A DNA stretch of 36,787 bases from assembly GCA_030619925.1 (NCBI GenBank), contig JAUXAL010000042.1:1-36787 (forward strand). Reading direction: 5' to 3'. Positions 2,068 through 36,568 of the stretch are shown piece after piece. The notes under the pieces were generated by a model. That model worked only from the letters and a program-made list of their open reading frames with translations, ran no database searches and had not been told where the DNA came from. This DNA comes from Phycisphaerae bacterium (GTDB lineage: Bacteria; Planctomycetota; Phycisphaerae; Sedimentisphaerales; Anaerobacaceae). Both the position numbers and the translations under genes were made by a program. Position 1 is the stretch's first letter, and each line of letters starts with the position of its first letter.

Positions 2068-2137
2068 TCGTTTCTCGATTCTGGATTCTCGATTCTCGAT
2101 TTTACGAGTATCTAGTATCGAGCATCGAGCATCGCAC
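2068..2137. repeat. Heptanucleotide array A (10 units)
   Basis: Ten consecutive 7-bp units in unbroken register: TCGTTTC, TCGATTC, TGGATTC, TCGATTC, TCGATTT, TACGAGT, ATCTAGT, ATCGAGC, ATCGAGC, ATCGCAC. The motif drifts from TCGATTC to its near complement ATCGAGC while the period stays at 7. It starts four bases upstream of the DUF362 start codon and so forms that gene's 5' leader. Confidence 0.85.
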
Positions 2138-2254
2138 GACGCTCATTATATTGTTTTTCCTTCCGGCCGCAAGAAAACCTTAAAGAAGTAGATGCTCAGC
2201 GAATATTTTGTGTCAAAATAATAAGCCCCCCAACTCGCCAAAGGTTTCTGACAA

Positions 2255-2791
2255 CTAAGTGCTTTCCATAATTAACCTAATTGCTGCAGCAAGCTCATCC
2301 GGCTTTTGAGAACCTATAAGTAATTTCTTACCATTTTTTAACACAAGCTGCATACCCTTGTTGCCGCTTACATTATACGCCTTACCACTTTTGACGAAGC
2401 TATATCGAATACCCCAACCACCATATTCGACAATGGGTTTATACGTCCGAGCATAATATTCGCTCAAATCTTCTGCTGTAAATTTCTTATAACGCATGTG
2501 TATCGGAAAAAAACGCACATACAAACCATCAGAGCGAACTGCCGTTTCCAATTTTACTGTTAAAAGAAGAACAGCAATCGCTATCGGCAAACCTATTCCA
2601 GCAGCGATAAGCAAAATAACTGGGACCAAATCAGGTGCCTCTTGCTTAAGAATTGTTGTCTTTAGTGCAAAGACTTGAATCACAACCACAAGAACCGTTA
2701 ATAGGACAAGCGGCAAGCGAATCCACAGGCAAAATCTCTGCACTTCATGAAAGATTAAATCATTTTCTTTATCCATTTCAATTGCTACCAT
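2255..2791 (-). CDS. Small membrane protein with PH-like cytoplasmic tail (DUF6141-like)
   Basis: 178 aa. Two hydrophobic segments (about residues 27-47 and 56-80) form a helical hairpin. They are followed by a soluble region with YGGWGIRYSFVKSGKAYNVSGNKG and LVLKNGKKLLIGSQKPDELA, typical of bacterial PH-like domains attached to membrane hairpins. I recall this pattern from DUF6141 but cannot run a profile. Function is unknown. A start at the internal Met (MDKENDLIF, five codons in) is possible. It follows the secreted Ada-tail protein by only 12 bp on the same strand, so the two are probably cotranscribed. Confidence 0.7.
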   Translation of the reverse strand: MVAIEMDKENDLIFHEVQRFCLWIRLPLVLLTVLVVVIQVFALKTTILKQEAPDLVPVILLIAAGIGLPIAIAVLLLTVKLETAVRSDGLYVRFFPIHMRYKKFTAEDLSEYYARTYKPIVEYGGWGIRYSFVKSGKAYNVSGNKGMQLVLKNGKKLLIGSQKPDELAAAIRLIMEST

Positions 2792-2803
2792 TTCAGTACT
2801 ACG

Positions 2804-3694
2804 TTATGGTTTACACAGCTTGCAGGGCCTTTTGCCGGCCTTTGCCGCTTCGTCTCTGCTGTTATAACCTACAAGATTTTTTGGTGAGATTTTCTTTGCC
2901 CAACGACACTGGGGCCTGTGAAAGACTTCACTGTTCTTCGATGCAGCATATTTAGATTCAGCCACCGCCTGTTTACCGGGCAGCCTCGACGGCTTCTTTG
3001 GCGTTATCGGCGAAACAGCGTCGATTGCCACGACGTCAGTCCGCTGAACACCCGGCGGACTCGTGCTACGTAGCGAGCTACTTCGCAGAGTAGTATTGGC
3101 TGCAAGATAAGCTTCGATAAAATATTCGACCTGCCTCAAAACCACACCGGTAACTATCGCAGGCATATTTTCCACTGATACGCCCCGCATTGGCGAGTCC
3201 TTTTTCCAGACATCAGGCTTAAGGATCAGCTCCGGCTCCGAAGATGAGGTGATTTCATGCTCCTTTGCCAGATAAACCGCCCTTGATAATAATGTTTGAA
3301 CACGGAACACATACTGCTGCGAATCTTCGAGTTTGAGAATATCTATATCAACTCTAAGCTCTGGAATGTTTAGAATGTTACCTGCGATTGCCCGAGCCAG
3401 TTTTATACCGGCTTCATTGAACTTGTTTATTACCTTCGCTTCGAGTTCTGTCCAAACCAGCCCGTCTTTGCTCAGCTCGGCGCCGGACGGCAAAATAGCG
3501 ACATGCAATTTATCTATCCCAGCCAGCTCCGGGTTGGCCCGGCCAATCAAGAAAGGCTCATCATGCTGCAGGGGCAACTCTATCTGACCCAGAGCAGAGG
3601 GACCTTGGGCCCAAGGACCCCGCTCTGCGGGAACCCAAATACACAAAATGCCGGTAACAACCGCCAAAACCAGATAATCCTTTTTGGTTTTCAT
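2804..3694 (-). CDS. Secreted protein with C-terminal Cys/His Ada-like metal-binding tail
   Basis: About 296 aa. I chose the ATG at 3694 because a good site (GGAAGG) precedes it and because it opens a signal peptide (MKTKKDYLVLAVVTGILCIW). A longer open frame reaches 3802 but would overlap the upstream gene. The middle (about residues 40-200) has mixed secondary structure with no family I recognise. The last 45 residues, from SEVFHRPQC to RPCKLCKP, match the short Cys/His 'VFHxxxCxWAKKI...PCxxC' module found at the ends of bacterial nucleases and Ada-like proteins, where it is thought to bind metal. Probably periplasmic or surface-exposed. Role unknown. Confidence 0.75.
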   Translation of the reverse strand: MKTKKDYLVLAVVTGILCIWVPAERGPWAQGPSALGQIELPLQHDEPFLIGRANPELAGIDKLHVAILPSGAELSKDGLVWTELEAKVINKFNEAGIKLARAIAGNILNIPELRVDIDILKLEDSQQYVFRVQTLLSRAVYLAKEHEITSSSEPELILKPDVWKKDSPMRGVSVENMPAIVTGVVLRQVEYFIEAYLAANTTLRSSSLRSTSPPGVQRTDVVAIDAVSPITPKKPSRLPGKQAVAESKYAASKNSEVFHRPQCRWAKKISPKNLVGYNSRDEAAKAGKRPCKLCKP

Positions 3695-3717
3695 AATCGG
3701 CCTTCCTTTCCGATACT

Positions 3718-4725
3718 TTAGCTGGCACCTAATGCTTTGTTTACCGCGGTCTTCATCTTCGCCAGGCCGGTCTTCGCTACCGTCAGCGGATCCTGCTTCC
3801 AATAAGTCGGATTGAAAAGTTCCAGCGATAGTACCGCCCTGCTGTTATTGCCTGCACTCGCGTAACCGCAGGTACGAGTGGCGTACAGGTCGCAAAGAAT
3901 TTGCCTCAGCGGTGCGATGCCGTCACCAGGATAGACGCGGTCACGGTCCCTTATCGTCTCACGCGGTGGCTCGGCCGGGTAGTCATTCAAGTGAAAGACC
4001 GCAATAGCCCGGGCGCTGAGCAGTTTCAGGCCATTGAAGTCCGACCCGCCCTTGTAGATGTGATAGACATCGGGCAACAGGCAGGCCTTGGGGTGGCCGC
4101 TCTCAATCACGACGAACATCGACTGGCCTAATCGGTGCAGGTTCTTTGAAGAACCCCATATCTCGACCTGCGGCACGACGCCCATACTGTCGCCCAGCTC
4201 CAACAGCACCCGATACCGCTCGGCTGCCTTCATAAGGTCGAGTCCCCCGGTGCGGGTAGCGCCTGCCGGAGGCGCAGCTATGCGCTTGCCGCCGACCCGG
4301 GCTAATACGTCCATGTCACGCTTAGCCTGTTCCATGCCTTTGGCACGCTCGGTATCGTCGTCCACAATCCAGCGGAAGAAGCTGATGGCACTTTCGACGG
4401 TCAGCCCGTAGTCGGCGATGCGCTTGCGCATCTCATTAAGACTGCCACCGCTCCTGGCATACTCGTGGATTTTGTTGACCCACGGCTCTATGGCGTCATA
4501 GCCGGCCTTAGCAACAATTTCGACCTCCCTGCCCAAACTCAGCTTTTGTCCGCGGATAGTGCTGGTGTTGAAACAGTAACTAAACGGTGCTGTGCGGTTG
4601 CGGTTAGCTTTGTCGGCCTCCTTAGCGGCGATGGCAGTACGCCGGACCCCGCCCGCGGTCACGATAGCAGCGCCGGTGCCGACCAATAATTGCCGCCTCG
4701 ACAGACTGTCACGAGTCATAGTCAT
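3718..4725 (-). CDS. Tat-exported sugar phosphate isomerase/epimerase-like TIM-barrel protein
   Basis: 335 aa. The N-terminus has a twin-arginine leader (SRRQLLVGTGAAIVTAGG), so export of a folded protein is expected. The mature part resembles the xylose-isomerase-like AP-endonuclease-2 TIM-barrel family: IVAKAGYDAIEPWV near the start, PQVEIWGSS in the middle, and LLPDVYHIYKGG, VFHLNDYP and LSLELFNP supplying acidic and His metal ligands late in the barrel. Enzymes of this family act on sugars or inositols, but the substrate cannot be read here. The ATG at 4725 has AAGG upstream. It sits between the Ada-tail gene (23 bp) and the DUF1805 gene (39 bp) on the same strand, consistent with an operon. 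Confidence 0.85.
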   Translation of the reverse strand: MTMTRDSLSRRQLLVGTGAAIVTAGGVRRTAIAAKEADKANRNRTAPFSYCFNTSTIRGQKLSLGREVEIVAKAGYDAIEPWVNKIHEYARSGGSLNEMRKRIADYGLTVESAISFFRWIVDDDTERAKGMEQAKRDMDVLARVGGKRIAAPPAGATRTGGLDLMKAAERYRVLLELGDSMGVVPQVEIWGSSKNLHRLGQSMFVVIESGHPKACLLPDVYHIYKGGSDFNGLKLLSARAIAVFHLNDYPAEPPRETIRDRDRVYPGDGIAPLRQILCDLYATRTCGYASAGNNSRAVLSLELFNPTYWKQDPLTVAKTGLAKMKTAVNKALGAS

Positions 4726-4764
4726 CTTCTACCTTAGTGACTTGCCCCCTGCTTTCTTACAACC

Positions 4765-5073
4765 TTACGCAATAAGCGCAAAGGCATCGCTGACTCTCAT
4801 ACCCTCTTTGATACCCAGGGCCTCGGCTTTTGCGTTCGCTTTTGTAATCTTGCGGTCTGGAAAACGTTCGAGCGTCCCTATCGGATTATCCGGCGTGCTC
4901 TCGGCTATTGCTGCAGCAACACCGTATCGGTCACAGGCCTCGGCATCAATCGCAGGACAAGCCAAAAATCCTTTACGGCCGGTCACCAATAGAATGCTGA
5001 ACCCCGCCCATTTGGTCTGCACCCCTTCAACCGGACCGTTTGGCGTCTGGTATGTCTTTGTGTGCACTTCCAT
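4765..5073 (-). CDS. DUF1805 (YunC-like) protein
   Basis: 102 aa, full length for the DUF1805/YunC family. Conserved features are the GRKGFLACPAID core with a Cys, ACDRYGVAAAIAE, and the terminal EALGIKEGMRVSDAF. A good ribosome site (AAGGAAG) precedes the ATG at 5073. The family has a solved fold but no established function. It lies 59 bp downstream of the phosphohexomutase on the same strand. Confidence 0.82.
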   Translation of the reverse strand: MEVHTKTYQTPNGPVEGVQTKWAGFSILLVTGRKGFLACPAIDAEACDRYGVAAAIAESTPDNPIGTLERFPDRKITKANAKAEALGIKEGMRVSDAFALIA

Positions 5074-5132
5074 TATTCGTTACTTCCTTTGTCTTTCCCG
5101 CAGGGGCAGGCATCGTACTCAACATGGGCAAA

Positions 5133-6503: not shown

Positions 6504-6745
6504 CTTGCAAACTCCTATAGCGTATATGCGTAAATGAGCATATCTGTTTACCCGTCTACTTACCCATTCATTGGCTCATCCACCCATTTATTATTTCGTA
6601 CTATACATCGCCTCCGCCCGATATTGCAAGCAAATTCAGCCCAAACTAAAAAGGCCTCTTGCCGCCGTCATTTCACCCCTGATTTAGGGCTGCAAGAGCA
6701 GGCTTGAGATTTTACCAATTATTGCAAAAAAACTTATTTTAGCGA
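6504..6745. other. Divergent intergenic region
   Basis: AT-rich spacer between the phosphohexomutase (minus) and the membrane-protein operon (plus). Positions 6535-6600 hold a weakly repetitive ACCCATT/TACCC stretch that I could not place in a clean 7-bp register. No gene is seen. Confidence 0.5.
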
Positions 6746-6774
6746 TTGACAGGGCTGTGGTAATGGCTCATAAT
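6746..6774 (+). promoter_or_regulatory. Sigma-70-type promoter of the membrane protein/winged-helix operon
   Basis: TTGACA at 6746-6751, a 17-bp spacer, then CATAAT at 6769-6774. This is an exact -35 and a 5/6 -10 at ideal spacing. The predicted start of transcription (about 6781) lies downstream of the first in-frame ATG at 6763, which supports translation from 6814. Confidence 0.7.
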
Positions 6775-6813
6775 TGGTTTGTATTAAAAACTGGTTTTTG
6801 GGAGATAATAGAA

Positions 6814-7795: not shown

Positions 7796-7808
7796 GGAAT
7801 CCGTAAAA

Positions 7809-7871
7809 CGCGATACGATATGCGCGATACACATCACGCATCGCGCAACACGAGCCACGGGTCACGAAGTT
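7809..7871. repeat. Heptanucleotide array B (9 units)
   Basis: Nine units in strict 7-bp register: CGCGATA, CGATATG, CGCGATA, CACATCA, CGCATCG, CGCAACA, CGAGCCA, CGGGTCA, CGAAGTT. It fills the whole gap between the convergent ends of the winged-helix gene (stop at 7795) and rpoN (stop at 7870-7872), where a terminator would be expected. Confidence 0.8.
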
Positions 7872-10519: not shown

Positions 10520-11953
10520 CTATTGGTTTTCTTCGACGCCGGTAATTGTTGCATCAAGTCCCATAAGGACCGTCTTGACGGCGGGGTCGTTAATTAGCTC
10601 ATTTCTCTTTTGACCACTGGTTTTGCCTCGATTCTCGATTCTTGACGCTCGATGCTCATTTTTCGATGTTTGATGCTCGATGCTGGATGCTGGATGCTCG
10701 ATGCCGGATGCTCGTCCCTCGTCCCTCGTCCCTCGTCCCTCGTCTCTCGTCTCTGGCGATTCGCTACTCGCTTGGCTCTTTACGCTTCTCGGCTCTTTTT
10801 TTTTAACAGCACCGGAGCCGGTCTGCAATTGTCTAAGAAGTTCATCAACATTCAGGAAATGTTCGCTTAAGGCAAATCTCAAAAGGGATGCTTCCAAAAG
10901 CGCCCTGCTTCTGTCACTGTTTTTGATTGCCCATCGCAATTTTTCGAGCGTCGCTATGTTATAAATGAGTGCAGCGACATCAAATTTTTCAGCTAACTCG
11001 CCGGCCCGCTTTCGCTGCCGGCCGGTCAAAATCAGAAGCTCGCTCTCGGCCCCCGTGGATTTTACCACCATCAAATCGCGCATATAATCGACGAGCGAAT
11101 CAACTATCTGGACCTCACTTATACCGGTACTGATTAAATCCTCTATCGCGGCAAACGTCCCTGCTGCATCGCCGGCACCGATTTGGGCAACAAGATTCCA
11201 GATTTTCTCGCTGTTCGGACAGCCCAAAAACTCCTCAAGCAGTGAAACGCTCAGCGGCTCGACACCGACGCTTATCAGTCTGTCCAGCAGGCTCAGGCCA
11301 TCTCTCATCGAGCCGTTTGCCATTTTCGCCAGCGGCAAAACCAAATCCTCTTCGTACTTTATTTTCTCCTGCTCAAGTACGAACTTTAGCTGCCCGGCGA
11401 TTTGCCCCGGCCCTATATTGCTGAAATCGAATCTCTGGCATCTCGATTGAATTGTGGCGATGACCTTATTCGGCTCGGTGGTAGCGAAGATAAACTTAAC
11501 GTGACTGGGCGGCTCCTCCAGTATCTTCAACAGTGCGTTAAAGGCAGGGACAGTGAGCATGTGGACTTCGTCAATAATATATATCTTGAACCTCGAGCGT
11601 GCAGGCCGATATATAGCGTTCTGACGAAGTTCGCGAACCTGCTCAACCCCGTTGTTTGTCGCGCCGTCGATCTCGATGACGTCGATATCTTCGCCGATAT
11701 TTATCGCAATGCAACCGTCGCACTTACAGCACGGCCCTGTGGTGGGAGCATCGACGGAAAGGCAATTAAGCGCTTTTGCCAGCACCCGGGCCATAGTGGT
11801 TTTACCAACACCACGAGTACCCGCAAAAAGATAAGCGTGTGCGACCCTGTCCGTCCTTATCGCGTTTTTGAGCGTCTGGACGATAGGGTCCTGGCCGATG
11901 ACGTCATCAAACGTCTGCGACCTATATTTTCTTGCAAGAACGGTATAAGCCAT
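10520..11953 (-). CDS. dnaX: DNA polymerase III gamma/tau subunit DnaX with repeat-derived heptad linker
   Basis: 477-aa clamp-loader ATPase. Walker A is GTRGVGKT (45-52). A zinc module uses Cys64, Cys75, Cys78 and Cys81. Walker B is IYIIDEVHML with Asp128-Glu129. The sensor and SRC motif lie at 158-173. The collar domain III runs to about residue 370. The linker between domain III and a short conserved-looking tail (DPAVKTVLMGLDATITGVEE) is encoded by a 21-unit heptanucleotide array (10628-10774, residues 394-442). It reads as 7-residue repeats such as RDEGRGT, RDEGRAS, GIEHPAS, SIEHQTS. No tau-type C-terminal domains are present. The ATG at 11953 directly abuts another heptamer array and has no Shine-Dalgarno sequence. 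Confidence 0.95.
   Translation of the reverse strand: MAYTVLARKYRSQTFDDVIGQDPIVQTLKNAIRTDRVAHAYLFAGTRGVGKTTMARVLAKALNCLSVDAPTTGPCCKCDGCIAINIGEDIDVIEIDGATNNGVEQVRELRQNAIYRPARSRFKIYIIDEVHMLTVPAFNALLKILEEPPSHVKFIFATTEPNKVIATIQSRCQRFDFSNIGPGQIAGQLKFVLEQEKIKYEEDLVLPLAKMANGSMRDGLSLLDRLISVGVEPLSVSLLEEFLGCPNSEKIWNLVAQIGAGDAAGTFAAIEDLISTGISEVQIVDSLVDYMRDLMVVKSTGAESELLILTGRQRKRAGELAEKFDVAALIYNIATLEKLRWAIKNSDRSRALLEASLLRFALSEHFLNVDELLRQLQTGSGAVKKKEPRSVKSQASSESPETRDEGRGTRDEGRASGIEHPASSIEHQTSKNEHRASRIENRGKTSGQKRNELINDPAVKTVLMGLDATITGVEENQ
10628..10774. repeat. Heptanucleotide array C inside dnaX (21 units)
   Basis: 147 bp in uninterrupted 7-bp register. It runs from TCGATTC x2 through TCGATGC/TGGATGC variants to TCGTCCC x4, TCGTCTC x2, TGGCGAT, TCGCTAC and TCGCTTG. 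Three distinct sub-motifs share one register, as in the intergenic arrays. 147 is divisible by 3, so the dnaX frame is preserved. Confidence 0.92.
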
Positions 11954-11988
11954 TTGTAATTGACTATTGACTATTTACTATTGACTAT
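11954..11988. repeat. Heptanucleotide array D (5 units) abutting the dnaX start
   Basis: TTGTAAT, TGACTAT, TGACTAT, TTACTAT, TGACTAT. It begins at the base next to the dnaX start codon and so is its immediate leader. The unit is the reverse complement of the ATAGTCA-type units in arrays E and F. Confidence 0.85.
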
Positions 11989-12003
11989 TAAAAGCGGTTA
12001 ATG

Positions 12004-12363
12004 TTACTGTTTTTTAAGTCCGCGGGCGGTTTTCCTGGAAGATACAAGTATAGAAGTCAATTCCCGGCCTTCCTGCAACAATGGGGAAACTCGTTGCTTC
12101 TTTAATAATTGCTCATCAATAATGAACTGCATCCAGAAACAAGCCTCATCGGTTTCTTCTATCACAATGCTTAATTTTGAAATAAAATTTGGTTTCGATT
12201 GCGCGATACAAACAGCCCTATAATTTGCTGCCACAGAAGTTGAACACTTTATCAGTTGGCCTTTAATGTGATTACCCAAAACTGTTTTAGGCAAAGCTAA
12301 GGCCAATTTGACGTAGCGGTGCGCAAACTTTTTGGTTCTATTCTTTAACTCATCTGCGTCCAT
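12004..12363 (-). CDS. Four-helix-bundle protein (23S rRNA intervening-sequence protein family)
   Basis: 119 aa, typical for the S23/four-helix-bundle family (TIGR02436). Recognisable features are the opening KNRTKKFAHRYVKLALALPKT, IKGQLIKCSTSVAANYRAV, ISKLSIVIEETDEACFWMQFI and the Ser/Thr-Arg-rich end. Homologues occur inside 23S rRNA intervening sequences and as lone genes; related bundles serve as accessory proteins of diversity-generating retroelements. No rRNA or reverse transcriptase is seen here. The gene is bracketed by heptamer arrays in inverted orientation (D on one side, E and F on the other), so it looks like a cassette placed upstream of dnaX. Molecular function is unknown. Confidence 0.85.
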   Translation of the reverse strand: MDADELKNRTKKFAHRYVKLALALPKTVLGNHIKGQLIKCSTSVAANYRAVCIAQSKPNFISKLSIVIEETDEACFWMQFIIDEQLLKKQRVSPLLQEGRELTSILVSSRKTARGLKKQ

Positions 12364-12370
12364 TTTTTAA

Positions 12371-12405
12371 TATTCAATCGTCAATAGAAAATAGTCAATC
12401 TAAGC
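12371..12405. repeat. Heptanucleotide array E (5 degenerate units)
   Basis: TATTCAA, TCGTCAA, TAGAAAA, TAGTCAA, TCTAAGC. It starts 8 bp upstream of the four-helix-bundle start codon. Confidence 0.65.
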
Positions 12406-12503
12406 CAACCTGCTATATTATAGTCCTGAATTCAAAAAATTCTATAAAAATTCCAGATTGACAATCTTTGCTTCAAAAGCTATGGTCTTGACCTATTAAA
12501 TTT

Positions 12504-12538
12504 GCAATAGTAAATAGTCAATAGTAAATAGTAAATTT
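12504..12538. repeat. Heptanucleotide array F (5 units)
   Basis: GCAATAG, TAAATAG, TCAATAG, TAAATAG, TAAATTT. It ends immediately before the ferredoxin ribosome site (AAGGG). It has the same unit as array D in opposite orientation, 550 bp away. Confidence 0.82.
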
Positions 12539-12551
12539 TAAGGGTTTTACT

Positions 12552-12746: not shown

Positions 12747-13556
12747 TCAGCCTGATAGCTCCTTGCTTCTGTCGCAGGCTGCCGTCAGAGCATCGGCTAT
12801 CAGCCGGCTGAAATTGTTTGCAGCGAAAACTTTCAGAGCTGCTTCGGTTGTTCCGCCGGGCGATGTAACCTTCTGCCGAAGGACAGCGGGGCTTTGGTCA
12901 TTTTTATCAGCGCCGGCCGCAAGCAAACCGGCGCCTTTAGCGGTCTGTAGAACCAGCTCTTTCGCTACGTCTTCAGGCAGACCTAATTCTACGCCTGCTT
13001 TAATCATCTCTTCCATCAAAAGAAAATAATAAGCAGGCCCACTGCCGCTGACGGCTGTAACGGCGTCGATCAAATCTTCATCGTCAACAACAACCGCCCT
13101 GCCGACCGATGAGAAAATCGACCTCGCATCGGCCAGCATCGGCCTTGCCCGCTCGTTGGCGAATAATGCGCTGGCTCCTTCGCCAATCAAAGCCGGCGTA
13201 TTTGGCATAACACGGACTATTGCAATATCACCTAATACGGCGGCAATATTTGCGACCTTTATCCCCGCTGCTATGGATATAACAAGTGTCCCGGCACCGA
13301 GGGCATCTTTTATACTCCCCAACGCATCAGTCATATTCTGAGGCTTGATACTCAATACGATGGTTTCAACTTTCGCCGCCAGCTCGGCATTAGTCTCAAT
13401 GGAAATAACATTATATTTTTCAGCAAGGAATTTAAGTCGTTCGGCCCTAACATCACTTATAAAGACATTTTCAGGCGCATAAATGTTGGCCGTTAATATG
13501 CCCTTTATCAGGGCTTCAGCCATATTCCCGCTGCCGACGAAACCGATTGTGCTCAC
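12747..13556 (-). CDS. proC: Pyrroline-5-carboxylate reductase
   Basis: 269 aa, full length. It catalyses the last step of proline synthesis, NAD(P)H-dependent reduction of pyrroline-5-carboxylate. The Rossmann GFVGSGNMAEALIKG is at the N-terminus and RVMPNTPALIGEGASAL follows in the middle. The C-terminal dimerisation/active-site motif reads VTAVSGSGPAYYF with LRQKVTSPGGTTEAAL. The start is a GTG at 13556 with AAGGAG at good spacing. It is divergent from the flavin reductase. Confidence 0.96.
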   Translation of the reverse strand: MSTIGFVGSGNMAEALIKGILTANIYAPENVFISDVRAERLKFLAEKYNVISIETNAELAAKVETIVLSIKPQNMTDALGSIKDALGAGTLVISIAAGIKVANIAAVLGDIAIVRVMPNTPALIGEGASALFANERARPMLADARSIFSSVGRAVVVDDEDLIDAVTAVSGSGPAYYFLLMEEMIKAGVELGLPEDVAKELVLQTAKGAGLLAAGADKNDQSPAVLRQKVTSPGGTTEAALKVFAANNFSRLIADALTAACDRSKELSG

Positions 13557-18494: not shown

Positions 18495-18497
18495 GTG

Positions 18498-20948
18498 ATG
18501 CTGCCAATCATTCAAATTCTTGGCCTGCCATTTCTGATATGTATCCTGATGAGTTCTATTCTTGGTTATTTGGGAATACATGTGCTTAAAAGGGAAGTCA
18601 TCTTCATCGATATTGCCCTGGCTCAAGTTGCGGCAGTTGGCTCTATTATTGCTCATCTTGCGTTTGAGGTACACGGGGATTCTCTGGTCGCGTATATGTG
18701 CTCCTTAGGCTGTGTTTTGATTACAGCCATATTTTATGCTGTGATACGAAGCAAAATTTTTCAGATACCGCTTGAAGCAATCATTGGTATTTCCTATGCA
18801 ATTGCCGCAGCAGCAGCTCTTTTCCTGGTCGGCATCGCACCCGGCGGTCATATACATATTCAGCACATACTTTCTGGCAGTCTTCTCTGGACAAGTTGGA
18901 GGGACGTAGCAGTGATTCTGCTCACTTTTTCAGCAGTAGGATTTTGCTTCTATCTTATCCGAAAGCCGTTGACCAACGTTTCGAATGGTTATCAGCAAGC
19001 TCTTGATAAGCGTCTTAGGATAATATTTTGGGATTTTATTTTTTATTTGCTGCTTGGTATTGTAATAACACTATCCGTTCAAATTGGTGGCATTGTCGTG
19101 GTATTTGCCTATCTTATAATACCTGCCACAATATCGGTGATTATTTCTTCACGTTTGGCCGTGCAGTTGATGATCATATGGGCTGCAGCAACAATGGCGT
19201 CAATAACAGGTCTGCTATTTTCGTATTATCTTGATTTTTCAATTGGACCTTCTATTGCGTTGTTTCTCGGCGGCGAATTGATACTCATCGCAATTATTGC
19301 ACGATTTGTCGGAGATATTCGCTATTGCTTTTGGAGAAATATTATGAAATATCGAAAAGTCTCTAATCTTTGCTTGGTGACAGTAGCATTTGTGTTTTTG
19401 ATATGGCAAATGACGACGCACTTAATTGCTTCGGCATCTGCTGACGAAAACAGAGCAGCCAGGCCAGTCGCGTCTCTTGAATCTATCGACAATAGCACGA
19501 AGAAGATTCCCGGAGAGCCTAACACATTGCACTTAACTAAACCAAATGACCGAGCGGGATCAGTTCGTGCCATAGCCTCCCACCTTGGCCTTGGCGAAGG
19601 CTCGGCTGTTGCTGACATCGGGGCAGGGAAGGGCCGAGACACGTGGGTCTTTGCGAAGATTGTTGGTGAAACGGGGACGGTTTTTGCCGAGGAGATTGTA
19701 GAAAACAAGGTGAAGTCGTTAAAGACAGAGGCTGAAAAAAAAGGTCTTAGCCAAGTTCGCGCTGTGCTGGGCCGCACCGACGATCCCTGTTTGCCCTCAA
19801 ATTCCGTTGAACTTGTCTATTTGAATCACGTTTACCACCATCTTGCGAAGCCCCGAGAGATGTTGCGGGGGATCTGGCGCGCACTGAGGCCAGGAGGCTA
19901 TCTTGTGGTGGTCGATAGAGAACGTGGGACGCTACGTGACTGGGTTCCGCGACACCTCCGCGAGAAGAAGCATTTCTGGATCGCCGAAACAACGGTGGTT
20001 AGAGAGGCGAGGGAAGAGGGGTTTGCTTTCATGGGCTGCGCTGAACAGTGCTGGCATACAAAGGATGACTTTGTCCTTGTATTTCAGCGTCCAAAAGAGC
20101 TGGAAAAGCCCGGCGGTGATCCCGACCCTTTTCTTTCCATTCCCCTGGAAAAGTACTCTCATCTATTCCTTCCCCTTGCTCGTCCTTATCAGCAACCGGT
20201 TATTGTTGCGCTGGGACAGGCGCGCGAACTGATGGTTCCAATCCTTGAAAACTCTTCTGGCGAAGGGCTGGAGATCGTTTTGGAGGAGTGGGCTACACAA
20301 AAAGATGAAAGACCGCCGCTTCCCTCTAGTGTTTCTCTCCCTTCGGTCCTCACAGAGAACGGCGATCCTAATCTGGCAACTGAGTCGATCGATGTGGTTT
20401 TCTTTATAGACAGCTATCACCTGCTTTTCCACGGAAAAACTTTGCTGGCTAAGATATACGAAAAGCTTTCACCAACCGGCTGCATATACGTTCTTGACCG
20501 CAAAGCTCAGAAGCCACTGTCCCGGCGTGAGGCAAGCCATCACAGAAAGATACAACCGAAGACAGTAAAGCAGGAGATGGCCGAAGCAGGCTTCTTTCTT
20601 TGGTTTCGCGGCCCCCGACCGGCACGCGACCGCTTTCTTCTTGTCTTTGGCAAAAACCAACCCGAAAAAGTTCCAATTGAAGAAGATATTTTTGTAGGTG
20701 GCCCGGTGATGCCCGAAGCCCCTGGTCGATGGCTCAAAAGAAACTACTGGCGCCTTCGGGGACTTAAGACAGCTGACGGAAGATTTGTCCTTTTCAGGGC
20801 GCTTAGGAAAGGATCTGTTGAGAAAGTCCCCAGTAGTTCATCAGGTAAAAAGATGTTGAAACTCCCGAAAGAGAAACTTATGCTATATTTCGAGAAAAAG
20901 GACGAAAAATATTTGCTAACCGATTATCGATCCTTGGACCGACGATAG
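18498..20948 (+). CDS. ABC-3 metal permease fused in frame to an exported-type double methyltransferase
   Basis: 816 aa. Residues 1-280 are a complete ABC-3 permease (LGIHVLKREVIFIDIALAQVAAVG, PLEAIIGISYAIAAAAAL, VVVFAYLIIPATISVII). Residues 283-315 look like a signal peptide or extra membrane helix: basic MKYRK, a hydrophobic core, then ASASA-DEN. Residues 345-530 are a class I methyltransferase with the SAM motif VADIGAGKGRD (371-380) and VELVYLNHVYHHLAKPREML, close to COG4798 proteins. Residues 535-760 repeat the second half of that fold (SIDVVFFIDSYHLLFHG) but lack the glycine-rich SAM loop. An internal ATG at 19344 has GGAG 7 bp upstream, so a free 534-aa exported methyltransferase may also be made. 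I chose ATG 18498 over the GTG at 18495 because of the AAAGGA spacing. Confidence 0.85.
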   Translation: MLPIIQILGLPFLICILMSSILGYLGIHVLKREVIFIDIALAQVAAVGSIIAHLAFEVHGDSLVAYMCSLGCVLITAIFYAVIRSKIFQIPLEAIIGISYAIAAAAALFLVGIAPGGHIHIQHILSGSLLWTSWRDVAVILLTFSAVGFCFYLIRKPLTNVSNGYQQALDKRLRIIFWDFIFYLLLGIVITLSVQIGGIVVVFAYLIIPATISVIISSRLAVQLMIIWAAATMASITGLLFSYYLDFSIGPSIALFLGGELILIAIIARFVGDIRYCFWRNIMKYRKVSNLCLVTVAFVFLIWQMTTHLIASASADENRAARPVASLESIDNSTKKIPGEPNTLHLTKPNDRAGSVRAIASHLGLGEGSAVADIGAGKGRDTWVFAKIVGETGTVFAEEIVENKVKSLKTEAEKKGLSQVRAVLGRTDDPCLPSNSVELVYLNHVYHHLAKPREMLRGIWRALRPGGYLVVVDRERGTLRDWVPRHLREKKHFWIAETTVVREAREEGFAFMGCAEQCWHTKDDFVLVFQRPKELEKPGGDPDPFLSIPLEKYSHLFLPLARPYQQPVIVALGQARELMVPILENSSGEGLEIVLEEWATQKDERPPLPSSVSLPSVLTENGDPNLATESIDVVFFIDSYHLLFHGKTLLAKIYEKLSPTGCIYVLDRKAQKPLSRREASHHRKIQPKTVKQEMAEAGFFLWFRGPRPARDRFLLVFGKNQPEKVPIEEDIFVGGPVMPEAPGRWLKRNYWRLRGLKTADGRFVLFRALRKGSVEKVPSSSSGKKMLKLPKEKLMLYFEKKDEKYLLTDYRSLDRR

Positions 20949-27852: not shown

Positions 27853-27929
27853 TATGGATGGTTCATGGTTCATTGTTCATTGTTCATAGATAACAGACAT
27901 CAGACTTCTGACTTCAGATAACAGACATC
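27853..27929. repeat. Heptanucleotide array G (11 units)
   Basis: TATGGAT, GGTTCAT x2, TGTTCAT x2, AGATAAC, AGACATC, AGACTTC, TGACTTC, AGATAAC, AGACATC in unbroken 7-bp register. The motif changes completely at the sixth unit without loss of phase. It begins 11 bp after the -10 of the promoter, at or near the predicted transcript start. Confidence 0.9.
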
Positions 27930-28037
27930 AGGGGGTTCCTAATGGCCATCGTTCTACAAAACGCCGGAAAACAGGGGTTTTTTGTCATATCAGTCCGAAA
28001 TAGCGGAGAAACTACGAAGTTTTGACTACTTTTTATG

Positions 28038-28375
28038 CAAAACAAAGCCAATTATTAAAAAGTCAAATGAATGTAAATCCATATAATACAACGGATTATG
28101 AAAATAAACGCGATTAGACACTTGGTGAAAACAAACCCAAACAAACCCAATTTGCCAGAGAGTAAAATTGATGCAAAGTGTGTATTTACAAAGGATTATG
28201 AAGAAAATTGCGGCTAAGGGCTCCGCAAAAACAAAGCCAAAACAAACCCAATTTAAAAAGAGCCAAAATGGACGTAAACATCTATTACACAGAGGTATAT
28301 GCAAATATATTGTGCATTCGGAGTCAATGAAAACAAACCCAAACAAACCCAATTTCAAACGCGATGACGGTTTTT
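28038..28375 (+). repeat. A/C-rich tandem repeat, copy 1 (4 units, 89-104 bp apart)
   Basis: Cores of the type AAAACAAACCCAAACAAACC followed by CAATTT begin at about 28038, 28127, 28225 and 28329. Between cores the sequence is also loosely shared (ATG-A-GTAAA--TATTACA--G-TTATGAAA), so this is a degenerate tandem repeat and not a CRISPR. Positions 28060-28140 match copy 2 near 36.1-36.2 kb almost exactly. Reading frames are interrupted by stops here, so this copy is non-coding or decayed. Confidence 0.8.
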
Positions 28376-31904: not shown

Positions 31905-32204
31905 GTTGTATTAAACGGATCAACAAACAGAGACCAGAAGATGCTATTGGGTTTTGGCATCTGATTTGTTTTTATTCTTCTCATCATTGCTTGTTGGGCT
32001 TCCTTTCTCTTTTGTTCTATGTGGCTACCCTCCAAATATTCATCCGTGTGAAAGATCGTCTTTATTGCATTAGTAAGCGTTTATAATCCAAATGATCCCT
32101 TTTTTCTTCATTATGGAGAACCATAGGTATGTTGGGTGCGTATTATAGAAGATTTCTATGTTCGTTCAGGTTTGTATGATTTTTTGTACTATGAGGGCTA
32201 ATTC
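31905..32204 (+). pseudogene. Intergenic region with C-terminal relic of a fourth PQQ propeller (32030-32086)
   Basis: Just before the stop at 32084-32086 one frame reads QIFIRVKDRLYCISKRL. This matches the ends of neighbouring propellers (LFLRSKKRLYCIA in protein 1; IMRTDKVIYCIGL in protein 2). Sequence before it (31905-32025) has lost any propeller pattern. It looks like the tail of a PQQ gene left after deletion or recombination. The rest of the gap is AT-rich leader for PQQ gene 2. Confidence 0.5.
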
Positions 32205-33512
32205 ATGAATAAAACAAGTAATCACAAAACAAATCTTTTGCGGAAATCGTGGATAGTATGTTCGGCCGTCGCTCTCAGTAGTCTGTTTGCAGCTTCGGCT
32301 TGGGGAAGCGATTGGACTCGGTTTCGTGGACCCTGTGGTGGGGGAAAAGTGGAGGCCACAAACCTGCCGGTCACTTGGGATGCCCAAAAGAATATTGTCT
32401 GGAAGACAGAACTGCCCGGCTTAGGTACGTCAAGCCCGATTGTCCTCGGAACGAATATTTACCTGACCTGTTACTCCGGGTATGCGGAATCGATCAAGGA
32501 ACCAGGCGAGATGCAGGAATTGATGCGTCACCTGGTCTCCCTCGACCGAAATTCGGGCAAAATCCTTTGGTCAAAAAAGTTCGCGCCAAAGCTCCCGGAA
32601 TCGAAGTATAGAAGTGGCAACGATTCACGCCACGGTTATGTCTCCAGTACCCTTGCAACGGATGGCAAGAGGCTTTATGCCTTCTTTGGTATCTCAGGTG
32701 TCTACGGATTCGACTTAGATGGAAATACTTTGTGGAATACCGATGTCGGATCAGGCACACATGGTTGGGGTTCAGGCACGTCACCGCTTCTTTACAGGAA
32801 CCTAGTGATTGTCAATGCTAGCATCGAGAGCGAATCCTTGATTGCCTTAGACAAGGACACTGGTCAAATCGTGTGGCGCACACCCTGTATCAAGAGGTGT
32901 TGGAGTTCGCCGATGCTCGTCCAAGCCGGTGACCAGCAGGAACTGGTACTCAATGTGCCGCATAAGCTGACCGGCTTTGATCCCGACACGGGCGATGAGC
33001 TTTGGCACTGCGACGGCATCCCGGATGGCTATGTATGCCCCACGGTTATCACGCATGAGGACGTGGTTTTTGCCATCGGTGGCCGGAAGAATACCGCCAT
33101 CGCGGTCCGGGCTGGCGGTCGAGATAACGTCACGCAAACGCATGTGCTCTGGACCGCGGACAAAGGTTCGAATGTCTCGTCGCCTGTATACCTCGACGGG
33201 TATTTATATTGGTGCCATGAATCCCGCGGTAAGATATACTGTCTGGACGCGAAGACTGGCAAGGTAGTCTATGAAGAATCGCTGACCCCGAGGCCTGGAC
33301 TGATCTATGCGTCGATAACTGCTGCCGATGGGAAGCTCTACGCGCCCTCGCAAGAGAAAGGCACCTATGTGCTCGCCGCCAAACCGGAGTTCCAGCAACT
33401 CGCAGTTAATCAATTCCAGGATGACCCATCGCGCACGAACGCTTCAATGGCCGTGTCGAACAATCAGTTGATCATGCGAACCGATAAGGTCATCTATTGC
33501 ATTGGCCTGTGA
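32205..33512 (+). CDS. Secreted PQQ-type beta-propeller protein 2
   Basis: 435 aa. A signal peptide (SWIVCSAVALSSLFAASAWG) precedes DWTRFRGPCGGGKVEATNLPVTW. Blades follow the same order as proteins 1 and 3 (GKILWSKKFAPK, DSRHGYVSSTLATDGKRLYAFFG, GNTLWNTDVGSGTHGWGSG, GQIVWRTPCIKRCWSSPML, GDELWHCDGIPDGYVCPTVI). It ends VIYCIGL. GAGGG precedes the ATG at 32205. It is on the opposite strand from its two paralogues, downstream of the SGNH-like gene. Ligand or partner unknown. Confidence 0.9.
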   Translation: MNKTSNHKTNLLRKSWIVCSAVALSSLFAASAWGSDWTRFRGPCGGGKVEATNLPVTWDAQKNIVWKTELPGLGTSSPIVLGTNIYLTCYSGYAESIKEPGEMQELMRHLVSLDRNSGKILWSKKFAPKLPESKYRSGNDSRHGYVSSTLATDGKRLYAFFGISGVYGFDLDGNTLWNTDVGSGTHGWGSGTSPLLYRNLVIVNASIESESLIALDKDTGQIVWRTPCIKRCWSSPMLVQAGDQQELVLNVPHKLTGFDPDTGDELWHCDGIPDGYVCPTVITHEDVVFAIGGRKNTAIAVRAGGRDNVTQTHVLWTADKGSNVSSPVYLDGYLYWCHESRGKIYCLDAKTGKVVYEESLTPRPGLIYASITAADGKLYAPSQEKGTYVLAAKPEFQQLAVNQFQDDPSRTNASMAVSNNQLIMRTDKVIYCIGL

Positions 33513-33834
33513 CCTCACACCGTCCCTTAGTGTGTAAATATTGCTTTGTTATAAGCGTATAAAAACCAAGAGGCTTCCCGTCTTTTCGGATGAAAGCATT
33601 TTCTGAGTTCTACATCTGGGGACTCGGTATTTCATGTTTTCTGGACAAGGAAAGGGATAGACTTATAACTTCCTTGAGAAGGACGTCTTGGGATCAGTAG
33701 GCAAAGCCAAGGTTGGTGAGGCAATTAACCACTGACGATCCACAGGTTGGCTGAGGTGCTGGCCGTCAGCAGTACAGCAAACGCAGGCATAAAGGGGAAA
33801 ATATTTGTCATTACCGCCAGCATGTTTGTACCAG
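33513..33834. other. Non-coding stretch after PQQ gene 2
   Basis: No gene with start and ribosome site. On the minus strand at 33727-33825 a short hydrophobic frame (TNMLAVMTNIFPFMPAFAV, ending ANLWIVSG) might be the tail of a lost membrane protein, but I cannot place it in a family. Confidence 0.3.
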
Positions 33835-34034
33835 TCCCACCAGCCAATCAGGCGCACTAGGCCGCACACGGATCAACCCTAAATATGGCCCCCTTTTAGT
33901 GAGTTGACGCCTACAACCCGAGTACAACTGGACAGCTCATTATCTGCCAATTCGAGAAAATGTTCGCTTCGTAAGCTCAATAGCATCAAGGCTTTATAGA
34001 AATCGTAAAATTTGTGAACGTTTTCAATGACCGT
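33835..34034 (-). repeat. 200-bp dispersed repeat, copy 3
   Basis: Full-length relative of the copy at 30153-30355 with the same ends (GTCCCACCAGCCAATCAG; GTGAACGTTTTCAATGACC) and the same orientation. Inside, TTATCTGCCAATTCG and CAAGGCTTTATA are shared. Sequence on both outer sides is unrelated between copies, which fixes the boundaries. Confidence 0.75.
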
Positions 34035-34262
34035 TGTTAGTGATTCTGAATTTAGCAGACAATTATCATGTTACATGAAGAATGAGCACTGGACTTGTTG
34101 TCCACTGGTCGTGACCTGTTTTCTTTTATGGGCTACTTAGGCCGGATCTCATCGTGTTACTGGCCATCATTCAATAGCCAAATTGACGAACTTAAGAGAT
34201 ATTAAGGGTCGTGATTGCCAATAAACGGAGTCGCAAGCCATTTGTGCAAAACCAGTTACGAT

Positions 34263-34334
34263 TGGGCCCGGAAGGATTCGAACCTTCGACCAATGGATTA
34301 TGAGTCCACTGCTCTGCCGCTGAGCTACGGGCCC
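34263..34334 (-). tRNA. tRNA with anticodon CAU (Met elongator or Ile2)
   Basis: 72 nt on the minus strand. The acceptor stem is GGGCCCG/CGGGCCC with discriminator A. The D arm is GTAGCTCAGCGGCAGAGC, the anticodon loop CTCATAA, and the T arm AGG-TTCGAAT-CCTT. CCA is not encoded. CAU may be read as Met, or, after lysidine modification, as Ile. The variable segment TTGGTCG resembles E. coli tRNA-Ile2 more than tRNA-Met, but this is not decisive. A TTGCAG-16-TATAGT promoter-like sequence lies just upstream. Confidence 0.93.
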
Positions 34335-34634
34335 TGGCTTCGGCATACTATATTAGACTCTCAAGCTGCTGCAATATTTTTTTACCCCTGACTTTAACTG
34401 CGAATGTGTTGCAATGTAACAATGTTGCTTGATAGGTTGTTTCGAGTTAAGGATATTACCCATGAAAAACCCTTATAGAATAGGGAAAATACGTTCCGGC
34501 AAATTTCCACTTATTTTACACCTGATAGGCCGTTATTTCAAGAAAATTGAGGACGACTATATTACTTTGGCAATAGCCTATTAGCTAAAGGCTCTCACCT
34601 GATACTATTTGGGCAACTGCTTTATCGGCAATAT
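34335..34634. other. Spacer between the tRNA and PQQ gene 3
   Basis: Contains the probable tRNA promoter (minus strand, about 34340-34375). Otherwise AT-rich, with no gene or repeat seen. Confidence 0.45.
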
Positions 34635-35975
34635 TTACTCTTTGGCCGAAAGGTCTGCGCAGAGGAGCTCTTCGTCATTTCTGATGTAAACGTGTTTGTA
34701 CGCAAAGGCTGGGTGTGACCAGCAGACCCCACCTCGTCGATTCAGTTGTCCTTTTGTAGGTTCGATGAGTTTAGTTCTGCTGATTTCATGGAATCCTTCA
34801 GGTGAGAGTTTGCAGATAATCAGTTCGCCGCGTTCGTTGAACATCCATATCTTGTCTTCGTGTCGTACCATGTGAATATTGGACCAGCGGTCTTTGGGCA
34901 CAGCATCGAGACTTTCCCAGATGCGGTCGCCGGTGTGCAAATCCAGACAGCGGAGCTCGCCGTAACTGTCCACGCCGTAAATGTAGTCACCTTGAAGGAC
35001 AGGAGTGGATATGCAGCAGTGGAGGCTATCGGTTTTTTTTTCGCTGGGGCCCTTGCGTCGCCAGACTTTTTCGACGGCGAGGCGGACGTAGTCCGCTCCG
35101 GATCGAACCGGCCGTTGGCCGGCGGGGTCGACCTTGAGCAGAAGTGAGCCGTCATAAAAAGCGCTGAGGAAAAGATAGCCGTTCTCAAAGACGGGAGTCG
35201 CAATATTAAGCACCATTTTTGACGGGGTGAATGGATGTTGCCAGTAGAGCTTTCCGGTCAAAGGATCAAGGCCGACGACATGCGCGCCCGTCCAGCAGAC
35301 AAGCACGTCTTTGCCGGCCTGTCTGATAATGACCGGTGCCGAATAGGAGGCAGGGTCGTTCAGGGCCCGCCATTTTTCCTTTCCGGTGACTTTATCAAAG
35401 GCGACGATGCAGGCGTTGTCTTTGCCGCCGATGTGCACTATAACCAGATCGTTTTGAACAAGTGGAGCGGCAGCAATAGCCCAAGTGGGCATTCTGATTT
35501 GGTACTCGGCATCGAGATCTTTGCTCCAGAGGACTTGGCCCTTTACCGCATCGAAACAAAAGAAATGTCCCATCGTTCCGAGCGAATAAGCACGGCCCTC
35601 GTTAATGGTAACTGCGGCACGTGGACCATTAGGGTAGCCGACCTTCTTGTATTTGCATTCATAGGAATGGGACCAGATTTTTTTGCCGCTCATGGCATCA
35701 AAACAGTGGACGCGCTCGACCGCAGCCGGCGTAGTTAAGCGGTCGGTGATATAGACCCGCCCGTCGGCGACGGTCGGCCCGCTGTAACCGTTTGCGATTT
35801 TAGCACGCCAGCGGATCGGAAGCTGCGGAGCATTGAATTTTTGCACAATACCCTTTTCCCGCCAGACGCCATCCCGGTTGGGACCCCGCCATTGGGGCCA
35901 GTCTGCGGCTAAAACCTGAATGTTAAGCAGAATCCCGATTATAATTGCGAATATTGATTTTTCAATCATGACCAT
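34635..35975 (-). CDS. Secreted PQQ-type beta-propeller protein 3
   Basis: 446 aa. A signal peptide (KSIFAIIIGILLNIQVLA) precedes DWPQWRGPNRDGVWREKGI. Blades include GKKIWSHSYECKYKKVGYPNGPRAAVTI, GQVLWSKDLDAEY, GKEKWRALNDPASYSAPVII, GKLYWQHPFTPSKM and GDRIWESLDAVPKDRW. It ends AFAYKHVYIRNDEELLCADLS. GAGGG stands 6 bp before the ATG at 35975. The leader of this gene is the A/C-rich tandem repeat, heptamer arrays H and I, and the promoter at 36450, so its expression may depend on the repeat module. Function as for its paralogues: extracytoplasmic propeller, ligand unknown. Confidence 0.9.
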   Translation of the reverse strand: MVMIEKSIFAIIIGILLNIQVLAADWPQWRGPNRDGVWREKGIVQKFNAPQLPIRWRAKIANGYSGPTVADGRVYITDRLTTPAAVERVHCFDAMSGKKIWSHSYECKYKKVGYPNGPRAAVTINEGRAYSLGTMGHFFCFDAVKGQVLWSKDLDAEYQIRMPTWAIAAAPLVQNDLVIVHIGGKDNACIVAFDKVTGKEKWRALNDPASYSAPVIIRQAGKDVLVCWTGAHVVGLDPLTGKLYWQHPFTPSKMVLNIATPVFENGYLFLSAFYDGSLLLKVDPAGQRPVRSGADYVRLAVEKVWRRKGPSEKKTDSLHCCISTPVLQGDYIYGVDSYGELRCLDLHTGDRIWESLDAVPKDRWSNIHMVRHEDKIWMFNERGELIICKLSPEGFHEISRTKLIEPTKGQLNRRGGVCWSHPAFAYKHVYIRNDEELLCADLSAKE

Positions 35976-35990
35976 ATACTGCCCTCGTTG

Positions 35991-36235
35991 AAAAATTGGG
36001 TTTGATTTGGGTTTGAATTGGCTTTGTTTTCCGGGACTGCGAAAATGTCATTTCTTTCATAATCCTTTGTTAATATTGAATTTACGCTCATTTGGGCATC
36101 CGGTAAATTGGGTTTGATTGGCTTTGAATTGGGTTTGTTTTCACCAAGTGTCCAATTGGATTTGTTTTCATAATTCGTTGTATTATATGGATTTACATTC
36201 ATTTGACTTTTTTGGAAATTGGGTTTGTTTTGCAT
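35991..36235 (-). repeat. A/C-rich tandem repeat, copy 2
   Basis: On the minus strand the cores (AACAAACCCAATTT and variants) lie at about 36232-36214, 36144-36106 and 36031-35991, about 110 bp apart. It starts TTATGCAAAACAAACC like copy 1 and shares the 80-bp segment with TCAAATGAATGTAAATCC. In this copy one frame is open from 36235 to 35966 and reads a repeated peptide (NKPNF, QMNVNPYNTTNYEN, then QMSVNSILTKDYER). It overlaps the PQQ start and has no ribosome site, so coding is doubtful. Confidence 0.8.
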
Positions 36236-36240
36236 AATTG

Positions 36241-36282
36241 TATCGTATCTCGTATATCGTATGTCGTATCTGGTATTTCGGA
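36241..36282. repeat. Heptanucleotide array H (6 units)
   Basis: TATCGTA, TCTCGTA, TATCGTA, TGTCGTA, TCTGGTA, TTTCGGA. It directly abuts the A/C-rich repeat (copy 2). Confidence 0.85.
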
Positions 36283-36393
36283 ATAATGAAAAACTAAAAG
36301 TTTCTCTACGATTTTGACTTAAATTTAGGATTTTGAGCATTTGATTCCTTAGCTTTGCTCGAGGACAAGCTTCGGGGGCAAAGATTTGCTATT

Positions 36394-36435
36394 GTCTATT
36401 CGATATACGACATACAACATACGATATACTATTCA
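36394..36435. repeat. Heptanucleotide array I (6 units)
   Basis: GTCTATT, CGATATA, CGACATA, CAACATA, CGATATA, CTATTCA. It lies just downstream of the minus-strand promoter at 36450. Confidence 0.82.
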
Positions 36436-36449
36436 TATGTTTGATACAT

Positions 36450-36478
36450 ATTATACCATAAAACCGGTTTGAAGTCGA
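36450..36478 (-). promoter_or_regulatory. Extended -10 promoter upstream of arrays I and H and PQQ gene 3
   Basis: On the minus strand TCGACT (36478-36473), 17-bp spacer, TATAAT (36455-36450) with the TGG extension. The block TGGTATAATATGTATC and the following AAC-ATG resemble the promoter at 27836 base for base. Confidence 0.6.
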
Positions 36479-36498
36479 GTGAAATCCGGAAAAATCTC

Positions 36499-36568
36499 CG
36501 AGACTCGAAGTTCGTATTGCGTATTGCGTAGAGCGTGAAGCGTATTGCGGATAGCGGATAGTGGTAGG
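36499..36568. repeat. Heptanucleotide array J (10 units)
   Basis: CGAGACT, CGAAGTT, CGTATTG x2, CGTAGAG, CGTGAAG, CGTATTG, CGGATAG x2, TGGTAGG. An open minus-strand frame across it (36429-36707) is an artefact of the period and is not annotated as a gene. Confidence 0.88.

Follow-up and report, generated by a model that had tools for sequence, protein, structure and literature searches.

Tandem heptamer arrays in a Phycisphaerae genome as probable repeat arms, or gene-less relatives, of S23p/IVP elements

A 36,787-nucleotide stretch of DNA from a Phycisphaerae bacterium (GenBank assembly GCA_030619925.1, contig JAUXAL010000042.1), termed the window, is one contig of a 4.02-Mb, 141-contig genome (G000; other genomes and loci are given G and L numbers). 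Its DnaX has its nearest counterpart, among the named genomes found, in an uncultured Phycisphaerales bacterium (61% identity), which makes a planctomycete of that class very probable. The window displays ten short tandem arrays in 7-bp phase, and the question it raises is what holds the period and what determines the repeated unit. The original prediction, made from the sequence alone, was of a mechanism that copies or selects length 7, or of a protein or RNA that reads a helical period. The analysis presented here suggests another relationship: on balance the arrays are probably, for the most part, repeat arms, or gene-less relatives, of elements that carry a gene of the S23p/IVP family (PF05635), and the S23p protein probably recognises its own unit.

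All ten arrays are present at the predicted positions (2068, 7809, 10628, 11954, 12371, 12504, 27853, 36241, 36394 and 36499). When the local sequence is resampled 2000 times with a first-order Markov model, the best lag-7 segment of nine arrays is never reached, and that of the array at 12371 is reached four times. This array and that at 7809 are the weakest (lag-7 identity 0.54 and 0.58, respectively). A stringent scan of the window at periods 2–21 shows 9 segments at period 7, 6 at 14, 3 at 21, 1 at 11 and none elsewhere. A sample of the genome (298,386 bases, 20 of the 141 contigs; segment score ≥14) yields 31 segments at lag 7, 20 at lag 14 and 10 at lag 21 and, multiples of 7 apart, no more than 3 at any period between 1 and 24; one Markov-resampled copy of the sample yields none. 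At a score of ≥12 the sample and window together have 43 arrays, of which a crude gene model puts 31 in intergenic DNA and 12 in called coding sequence, which makes up 64% of the bases. Thus the autocorrelation peak at lags 7, 14 and 21 that was anticipated is present, is commoner in intergenic DNA and is not equalled by other periods. Markov resampling, together with the period scans of the window and genome sample, rules out a chance origin; the arrays are a real, non-random feature.

Three of the arrays (11954, 12371 and 12504) are inverted arms placed on either side of a PF05635 gene. The open reading frame (ORF) is at positions 12004–12363 on the minus strand, has a chain length of 119 amino acids and is situated between the pyrroline-5-carboxylate reductase gene (12747–13556) and dnaX. 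The downstream arm (11954–11990, minus strand; lag-7 score 20) lies between the stop of this gene and the start of dnaX, and its unit, written on the plus strand, is TATTGAC. The inner upstream arm (12366–12405, minus strand) is weak (lag-7 score 11, with the four resamplings mentioned above); it is the reverse complement of the downstream arm, with an inverted match of 21 to positions 11966–11992. The outer upstream array (12504–12541, minus strand) has the TATTGAC unit found in the other arms of the element and matches the reverse complement of the downstream arm with a score of 24. It pairs with that arm in the predicted RNA fold of the minus strand at 11950–12545 (−141 kcal/mol, z = −2.70, 2 of 100 shuffles being as stable). 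Rfam finds no ribosomal RNA in the window, hence the element is outside a 23S rRNA gene.

The translated ORF matches PF05635 with an E-value of 1.6e-9 (38.4 bits, curated cut-off 33.8), which is its only Pfam match, and matches PDB entry 2rld_A with an E-value of 2e-11. Its AlphaFold2 monomer model is a four-helix bundle (mean predicted local distance difference test score, pLDDT, 96.9). With this model Foldseek finds the S23 structures 2rld (E = 2.9e-5) and 2gsc (E = 1.3e-3), each of which has five chains; weaker matches are to Avd (4dwl, E = 0.014) and to a ribonucleoprotein of a diversity-generating retroelement (DGR; 8ub7, E = 0.017), with a template modelling (TM) score of about 0.76. The modelled monomer has the fold of the S23 pentamer family. 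To our knowledge, no catalytic site has been described in the S23p four-helix bundle.

The genome of the window has nine PF05635 genes above the cut-off. All nine show, by eye, short-unit tandem arrays on both sides that are mutually inverted, and the unit differs between genes; at L181 it is 8 bp long, and L184 is marginal by score (15, with a 95% control of 15.4). PF05635 matches are found in 35 of the 41 genomes of a set of relatives, and in 33 of 50 genomes (31 above the cut-off) that were reached through named loci of several phyla. The loci compared number 128: 98 from the first set (9 from the window's genome and 89 from relatives), which are a part of the matches in that set, and 30 from the named genomes.

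When the upstream flank of each of the 98 loci is aligned with the reverse complement of its own downstream flank, the median score is 20, whereas mismatched loci average 10.2; 74 loci exceed the 95th percentile of the mismatched control and 28 the 99th. In direct orientation the median is 10 and five of the 98 exceed the 99th percentile. The named genomes (two of the 30 loci were dropped for short flanks) show 26 of 28 above the 95th percentile and 14 above the 99th; the records include Syntrophales, Nitrospira, Omnitrophota, Chloroflexi, Bacteroidetes, Ignavibacteria, Verrucomicrobia and Planctomycetota. Both flanks are periodic at 88 of the 128 S23p loci; of 2000 positions drawn at random in planctomycete samples, 15 are so flanked. 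In 83 of the 88 the two arms agree in period (permutation maximum 71): 70 at 7 bp, 9 at 8, 3 at 6 and 1 at 9. Twenty further S23p loci show 12 with two periodic flanks, all 12 concordant in period. With dnaX as the control gene (28 of 30 loci used), no locus has two periodic flanks and 13 have one. In at least one S23p clade both arms are upstream of the gene.

S23p matches are also found on plasmids, in 39 records, nearly all cyanobacterial. The inverted-flank score is 17 or more in 12 of 16 plasmid loci, which mostly have inverted arrays of 7-, 8- or 9-bp units; six of the 16 pass the 95th percentile of a control whose scores are raised by the units that plasmid loci have in common. At L371 the direct match is greater than the inverted match. 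The contrast that had been drawn with the heptameric short tandemly repeated repetitive (STRR) sequences of cyanobacteria is thus doubtful, as most of the cyanobacterial plasmid S23p genes examined carry similar inverted arrays. Three cyanobacterial plasmid S23p genes (L371, L372 and L374) lie amid genes of clustered regularly interspaced short palindromic repeats (CRISPR) systems, i.e. in the cas6/cas4 gap, in the cas10/cmr3 gap and after cas2. Units of 9 bp (CTAAAGTGC type) are present on one or both flanks of S23p loci L375, L376, L383 and L389. In and beside the S23p neighbourhood of L196 (positions 1392–1455, 2450–2535 and 2783–2892), parts of the query recur at dozens of sites in G036 (a total of 45 matches) and represent dispersed repeat families.

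The sequence of the unit is related to that of the protein. Comparison of 109 upstream arms gives a unit similarity of 5.3–5.8 for proteins of less than 50% identity, 8.0 at 50%–60%, 12.8 at 60%–70% and 16.2 above 70%; in the opposite orientation it stays at 4.3–5.5 throughout. Pairs of >70% identity without a detected common flanking gene (n = 33) have a mean unit similarity of 15.0; pairs of <45% identity with a common flanking gene (n = 12) have 7.0. Where protein identity exceeds about 60%, the unit goes with the protein and not with the site, in one case across phyla: the GACAGAN unit is common to L180, in the window's genome, and L291, in a 5.3-Mb chromosome of a Desulfobacterales metagenome-assembled genome, with an S23p identity of 73%. 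Most simply, protein and unit were transferred together. Groups of related proteins display the units GCGTNNN, CTCGATN, GTTCNNN and GACAGAN (descriptive consensus for each clade), and an upstream arm has a median of 4.7 units (10th–90th percentile 3.7–9.6).

These relationships bear on the mechanisms first proposed. The genome-wide, mostly intergenic excess of period 7 is borne out, and something that reads the repeats explains the data better than slippage by itself. Selection of length 7 with free content is not supported: some related elements have units of 6, 8 or 9 bp, their two arms usually agreeing in period, and unit content tracks how closely the neighbouring S23p proteins are related. 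A reader of a helical period is not indicated either, given that one architecture occurs with several periods. Both a strictly length-7 copier and a helical-period reader are rejected, since periods of 6, 8 and 9 occur.

One site with and without the element and one gene-deletion site were examined. In G035, tRNA-Val and the next gene nearly abut, with 19 bp between aligned blocks and no array; in G025, of the same genus, this gap measures 527 bp and holds an S23p gene together with a repeat hairpin. The flank score at the G025 locus is low (9) because both arms are upstream of the gene. In G036, compared with G032 of the same genus, most of the S23p gene is deleted and the arms are kept. No target-site duplication was established.

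At the dnaX locus, S23p is nearby in 10 of 30 loci, and the presence of an array and its unit vary between genera. G023 has no S23p there but keeps, by eye, two short inverted arms. The coding region of the DnaX linker was compared in eight genomes (window positions 10627–10754; L090, L091, L093, L096) and has heptamer arrays of different unit (CTCGTCC in G000, GACAGAG in G023, GAGAGAC in G019; also G004 and G013), with none in G003, G016 and G007. The window copy (10627–10754, minus strand) changes from CTCGATG to CTCGTCC, as written on the plus strand. A small bacterial signal recognition particle RNA (RF00169) is found upstream of dnaX in eight relatives without S23p at this position (L097:1380–1478, L101:1359–1459, L102:1384–1482, L104:1348–1447, L105:1333–1430, L118:1359–1456 and, on the minus strand, L099 and L103).

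The other arrays of the window are without an S23p gene. Contrary to what had been thought, the units of the ten arrays are not different at every locus: 2068 matches 10628 (CTCGATN), 11954, 12371 and 12504 match mutually (TATTGAC), 7809 matches 36499, and 36241 matches 36394. The array at 27853 is the only one without a partner above shuffled controls. Positions 2065–2134 encompass a gene-less hairpin, (CTCGATT)n with its reverse complement a few bases on. The weak and diverged CGCGATA-like array at 7808–7866 has an inverted match to 36520–36559, and the CGTATTG/CGGATAG array at 36505–36564 has one to 7807–7852. Positions 36243–36293 (TCGTATN) and 36384–36432 are the left and right arms of an inverted pair (inverted match of 21 between the left arm and 36398–36432). 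The array at 27858–27931 consists of GTTCATN-type and then CAGACAT-type units.

The claim that units switch within an array without loss of phase holds in part. Some switches are a unit running into its own reverse complement (by eye, window 2065–2134, L126:1617–1674 and L124:18166–18230); others, e.g. 27858–27931, resemble two joined unit families. Such mosaic arrays, with two families in one phase, are also seen by eye at L123:11552–11635 and L133:2351–2413 (GTTCATN with CAGACAT or GTCAATN types). The best explanation of the window as a whole, more probable than otherwise, is one gene-bearing element (11954–12541) and several gene-less relatives.

Gene-less arrays were counted in 19 genomes with S23p neighbourhoods masked. 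Their density rises with the number of S23p genes per Mb (Spearman 0.75, p = 2.4e-4), in a comparison that ignores phylogeny, which limits its support for this reading; the mean is 0.4 per 100 kb in six genomes with one S23p gene or none and 7.1 in nine with five or more. The named genomes show 0 arrays in 244 kb (17 genomes without S23p) versus 7 in 593 kb (33 with S23p), a difference that is weak alone. Period-7 segments with a score of ≥14 number 7 in 37 kb of G003, 15 in 113 kb of G019 and 9 in 154 kb of G023; there are 3 in 80 kb of G027, which belongs to another family, and 0 or 1 in 60–80 kb each of G001, G011, G015 and G017. In the window's genome, contig L137 opens within a long and almost perfect (AGAAGAC)n array (L137:1–194), so that arrays probably break the assembly and hence are under-counted.

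Counts of unit patterns, which are overlapping matches and not arrays, show amplification of the same units as in S23p arms. G000 has 257 matches to GACAGAN, for which the reversed control itself gives 98, and 68 to CTCGATN; 16 genomes outside the family have two or fewer matches each to any of three unit patterns. The association of unit with genome, in which the arms themselves are counted, gives p = 0.002 for GCGT, 0.003 for CTCGAT and 0.06 for GACAGA. Among 21 pairs of adjacent arrays the orientation is +− in 6, −+ in 1 and mixed or undetermined in 14. In a test of 42 gene-less arrays (one array of >120 bp was omitted) for a partner within 1 kb, 4 have an inverted partner and 1 a direct partner at the 99% control.

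Several observations weigh against this interpretation. Many gene-less arrays are unpaired: at the 95% control the same partner test gives 15 of 42 inverted and 13 of 42 direct, which is no clear excess of inverted partners. Gene-less units match the arms of the same genome clearly in G000 only, and G003 and G027 show the opposite. G015, G030 and G031 are rich in S23p yet poor in arrays. G023, about 86% complete, has 103 matches to CTCGATN, and none of the five S23p genes found there has a CTCGATN arm. The Mantel correlation across the whole range of identity is not significant (0.069; permutation maximum 0.084), and a fixed core within the unit is not seen, the invariant phases in single arms being 212 with 215 expected by chance. 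The sets of loci include orthologues. Plasmid loci L365, L370 and L374 are without inverted arms (scores 9–12), and L369 has direct arrays only. The coupling of unit and protein could moreover be co-inheritance without binding.

Four other explanations have to be set against it. Plain replication slippage would have a length preference near 7 and no relation to any gene, S23p being merely nearby. Heptamer over-representation and the idea of polymerase-size slippage (Mrazek 2007, as cited there) are in print (PMC4692102), long near-perfect runs such as L137:1–194 look slippage-expanded, and the spread of changes within arms fits a neutral expectation. Slippage does not, however, predict inverted arms at a single gene family, equal periods of 6, 8 or 9 bp on both arms, a coupling of unit and protein across sites and phyla, or dnaX genes with two periodic flanks in none of 28 cases. 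This explanation is very unlikely, and slippage alone as the whole explanation is rejected on arm inversion, period concordance and unit-protein coupling. A passive element resembling an intervening sequence (IVS) is also rather unlikely: the arms would be only an RNA stem for RNase III, the protein would be dispensable and the units would drift by slippage and arm-to-arm correction. The arms do remain complementary though their sequence varies between loci, they pair in the predicted fold of the window element (z = −2.70), and co-inheritance in one element would also yield the unit-protein coupling; RNase III excises the IVS of Coxiella, whose S23p is probably not made (PMC4990558). Against this, the S23p ORFs are mostly intact, with in-frame stops in 2 of 98 (L209, L212), 1 of 30 (L306) and 2 of 20 (L379, L384), and in one clade no stem encloses the ORF because both arms are upstream of the gene.

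S23p genes could instead home into pre-existing cognate arrays, which would then be targets and not arms. Gene-less arrays of S23p-arm units are common, and in G023 many CTCGATN matches are present with no cognate gene found. The gene-free site in G035 has no array (one site pair), however, and the arms persist after gene deletion in G036 (one site), which makes homing an improbable explanation. It is similarly improbable that the gene-less arrays are regulatory sites of a post-transcriptional network controlled by S23p, and not relics of elements. By eye, and uncounted, arms are often near start codons, and a heptamer-binding post-transcriptional regulator was proposed for the TAACTGA repeats of Beggiatoaceae (PMC4679880); but at dnaX, the sole locus compared, both presence and unit differ between genera, and more than a quarter of the arrays (12 of 43) fall in called coding sequence.

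An S23p element consists of a four-helix-bundle gene and tandem arrays of a clade-specific unit, mostly of 7 bp and also of 6, 8 or 9. The usual layout is (unit)n – gene – (reverse-complement unit)n, with both arms upstream in at least one clade. An S23p ring would bind the arrays, as an RNA stem or single strand, perhaps with one unit per subunit, and binding would maintain the unit and allow the element to survive or spread. Copy number and turnover would come from slippage and from correction between the arms; slippage can add units and template switching can keep arms complementary, both being established processes. Judged from the comparison of units with proteins, it is fairly likely that S23p recognises its unit. 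The element may be mobile, the target might conceivably be RNA rather than DNA, and, by analogy with TRAP, five subunits may take five units.

Heptameric repeats have so far had no reported partner gene and S23p no reported function. Linking the two would provide a testable role, with a target sequence for each protein clade, and would help explain why some bacterial lineages, and not others, prefer 7 bp; it would also bring out a widespread class of small elements of which annotation shows no more than lone “four helix bundle protein” genes. A literature search, largely without subscription journals, found no link of S23p genes with heptamer arrays outside rRNA. A wider proposal, which is tentative and more doubtful, is that S23p pentamers may be sequence-specific readers of arrays of period 6 to 9, with one unit per subunit. 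They could then be the missing partner of the cyanobacterial, Xanthomonas and Beggiatoaceae heptamers, and form a REPtron-like class across many phyla with a protein without known enzyme activity.

Two features of the window stand apart from these arrays. An 817-amino-acid ORF at 18495–20948 has an ABC-3 permease match N-terminally and a methyltransferase domain further along, and may be a fusion or a frame artefact. Positions 28129–28352 and 35993–36205 hold repeats of other periods, i.e. AAACAAACCC decamers and a 111-bp repeat.

Among known systems, a RAYT gene bracketed by repetitive extragenic palindromic (REP) repeats is comparable in layout. The REPtron (TnpA-REP, or RAYT-REP) is described in PMC8266576 as having high-copy REP palindromes that are thought to be non-autonomous and proteins that co-evolved with cognate repeats. 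Many gene-less repeat copies are likewise found in the window's genome. The gene here encodes a four-helix bundle, however, and the arrays are tandem and of short units in place of REP palindromes. In Pfam the enclosed ORF matches PF05635 only and no HuH tyrosine transposase, the rest of the genome not having been searched for one. Avd of DGRs has a fold in common with the modelled S23p; no reverse transcriptase was found among 29 window ORFs scanned, without a dedicated search for the enzyme or for template and variable repeats (TR/VR). An RNA ring with one unit per subunit, as in TRAP, is suggestive only, with a median of 4.7 units in an upstream arm versus five chains.

Tandem heptamers dispersed in intergenic DNA, as in the STRR sequences, are found in the window's genome as well. 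According to PMC4692102, the heptamers of STRR, Xanthomonas and Nostoc have a non-coding bias and a preference for four units, are described as G-quadruplex-forming and are generally not associated with mobile elements; the GGGAATC heptamers of Xanthomonas form convergent (inverted) pairs, in 70 and 75 cases. X. campestris encodes an S23p, XCC0516 (structure 2gsc). The TAACTGA repeats of Beggiatoaceae, cyanobacteria and Bacteroidetes are also heptamer arrays but have one fixed unit. According to PMC4679880, their patchy spread suggests horizontal transfer, their binding protein is unknown, and S1, Csp and Csr proteins are discussed as binders; its main text nowhere uses the terms S23, IVS, 23S rRNA or helix bundle.

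The closest likeness is to the IVS of 23S rRNA. In Coxiella burnetii this carries terminal inverted repeats and an S23p ORF whose start codon is preceded by three GACAGAT units in tandem; the copy number of the units varies between strains (PMC4990558). The elements described here likewise have an S23p gene, terminal inverted repeats and tandem heptamers by the ORF, and the Coxiella GACAGAT resembles the GACAGAN of L180. They differ in being intergenic and in several copies per genome, in that the arrays themselves are the inverted arms, in having units proper to each clade, and in the abundance of gene-less arrays. The counterpart of RNase III excision is, in the window element, a predicted stem only. 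The elements are a variant of the S23p/IVS kind, situated in intergenic DNA with the arrays as their arms.

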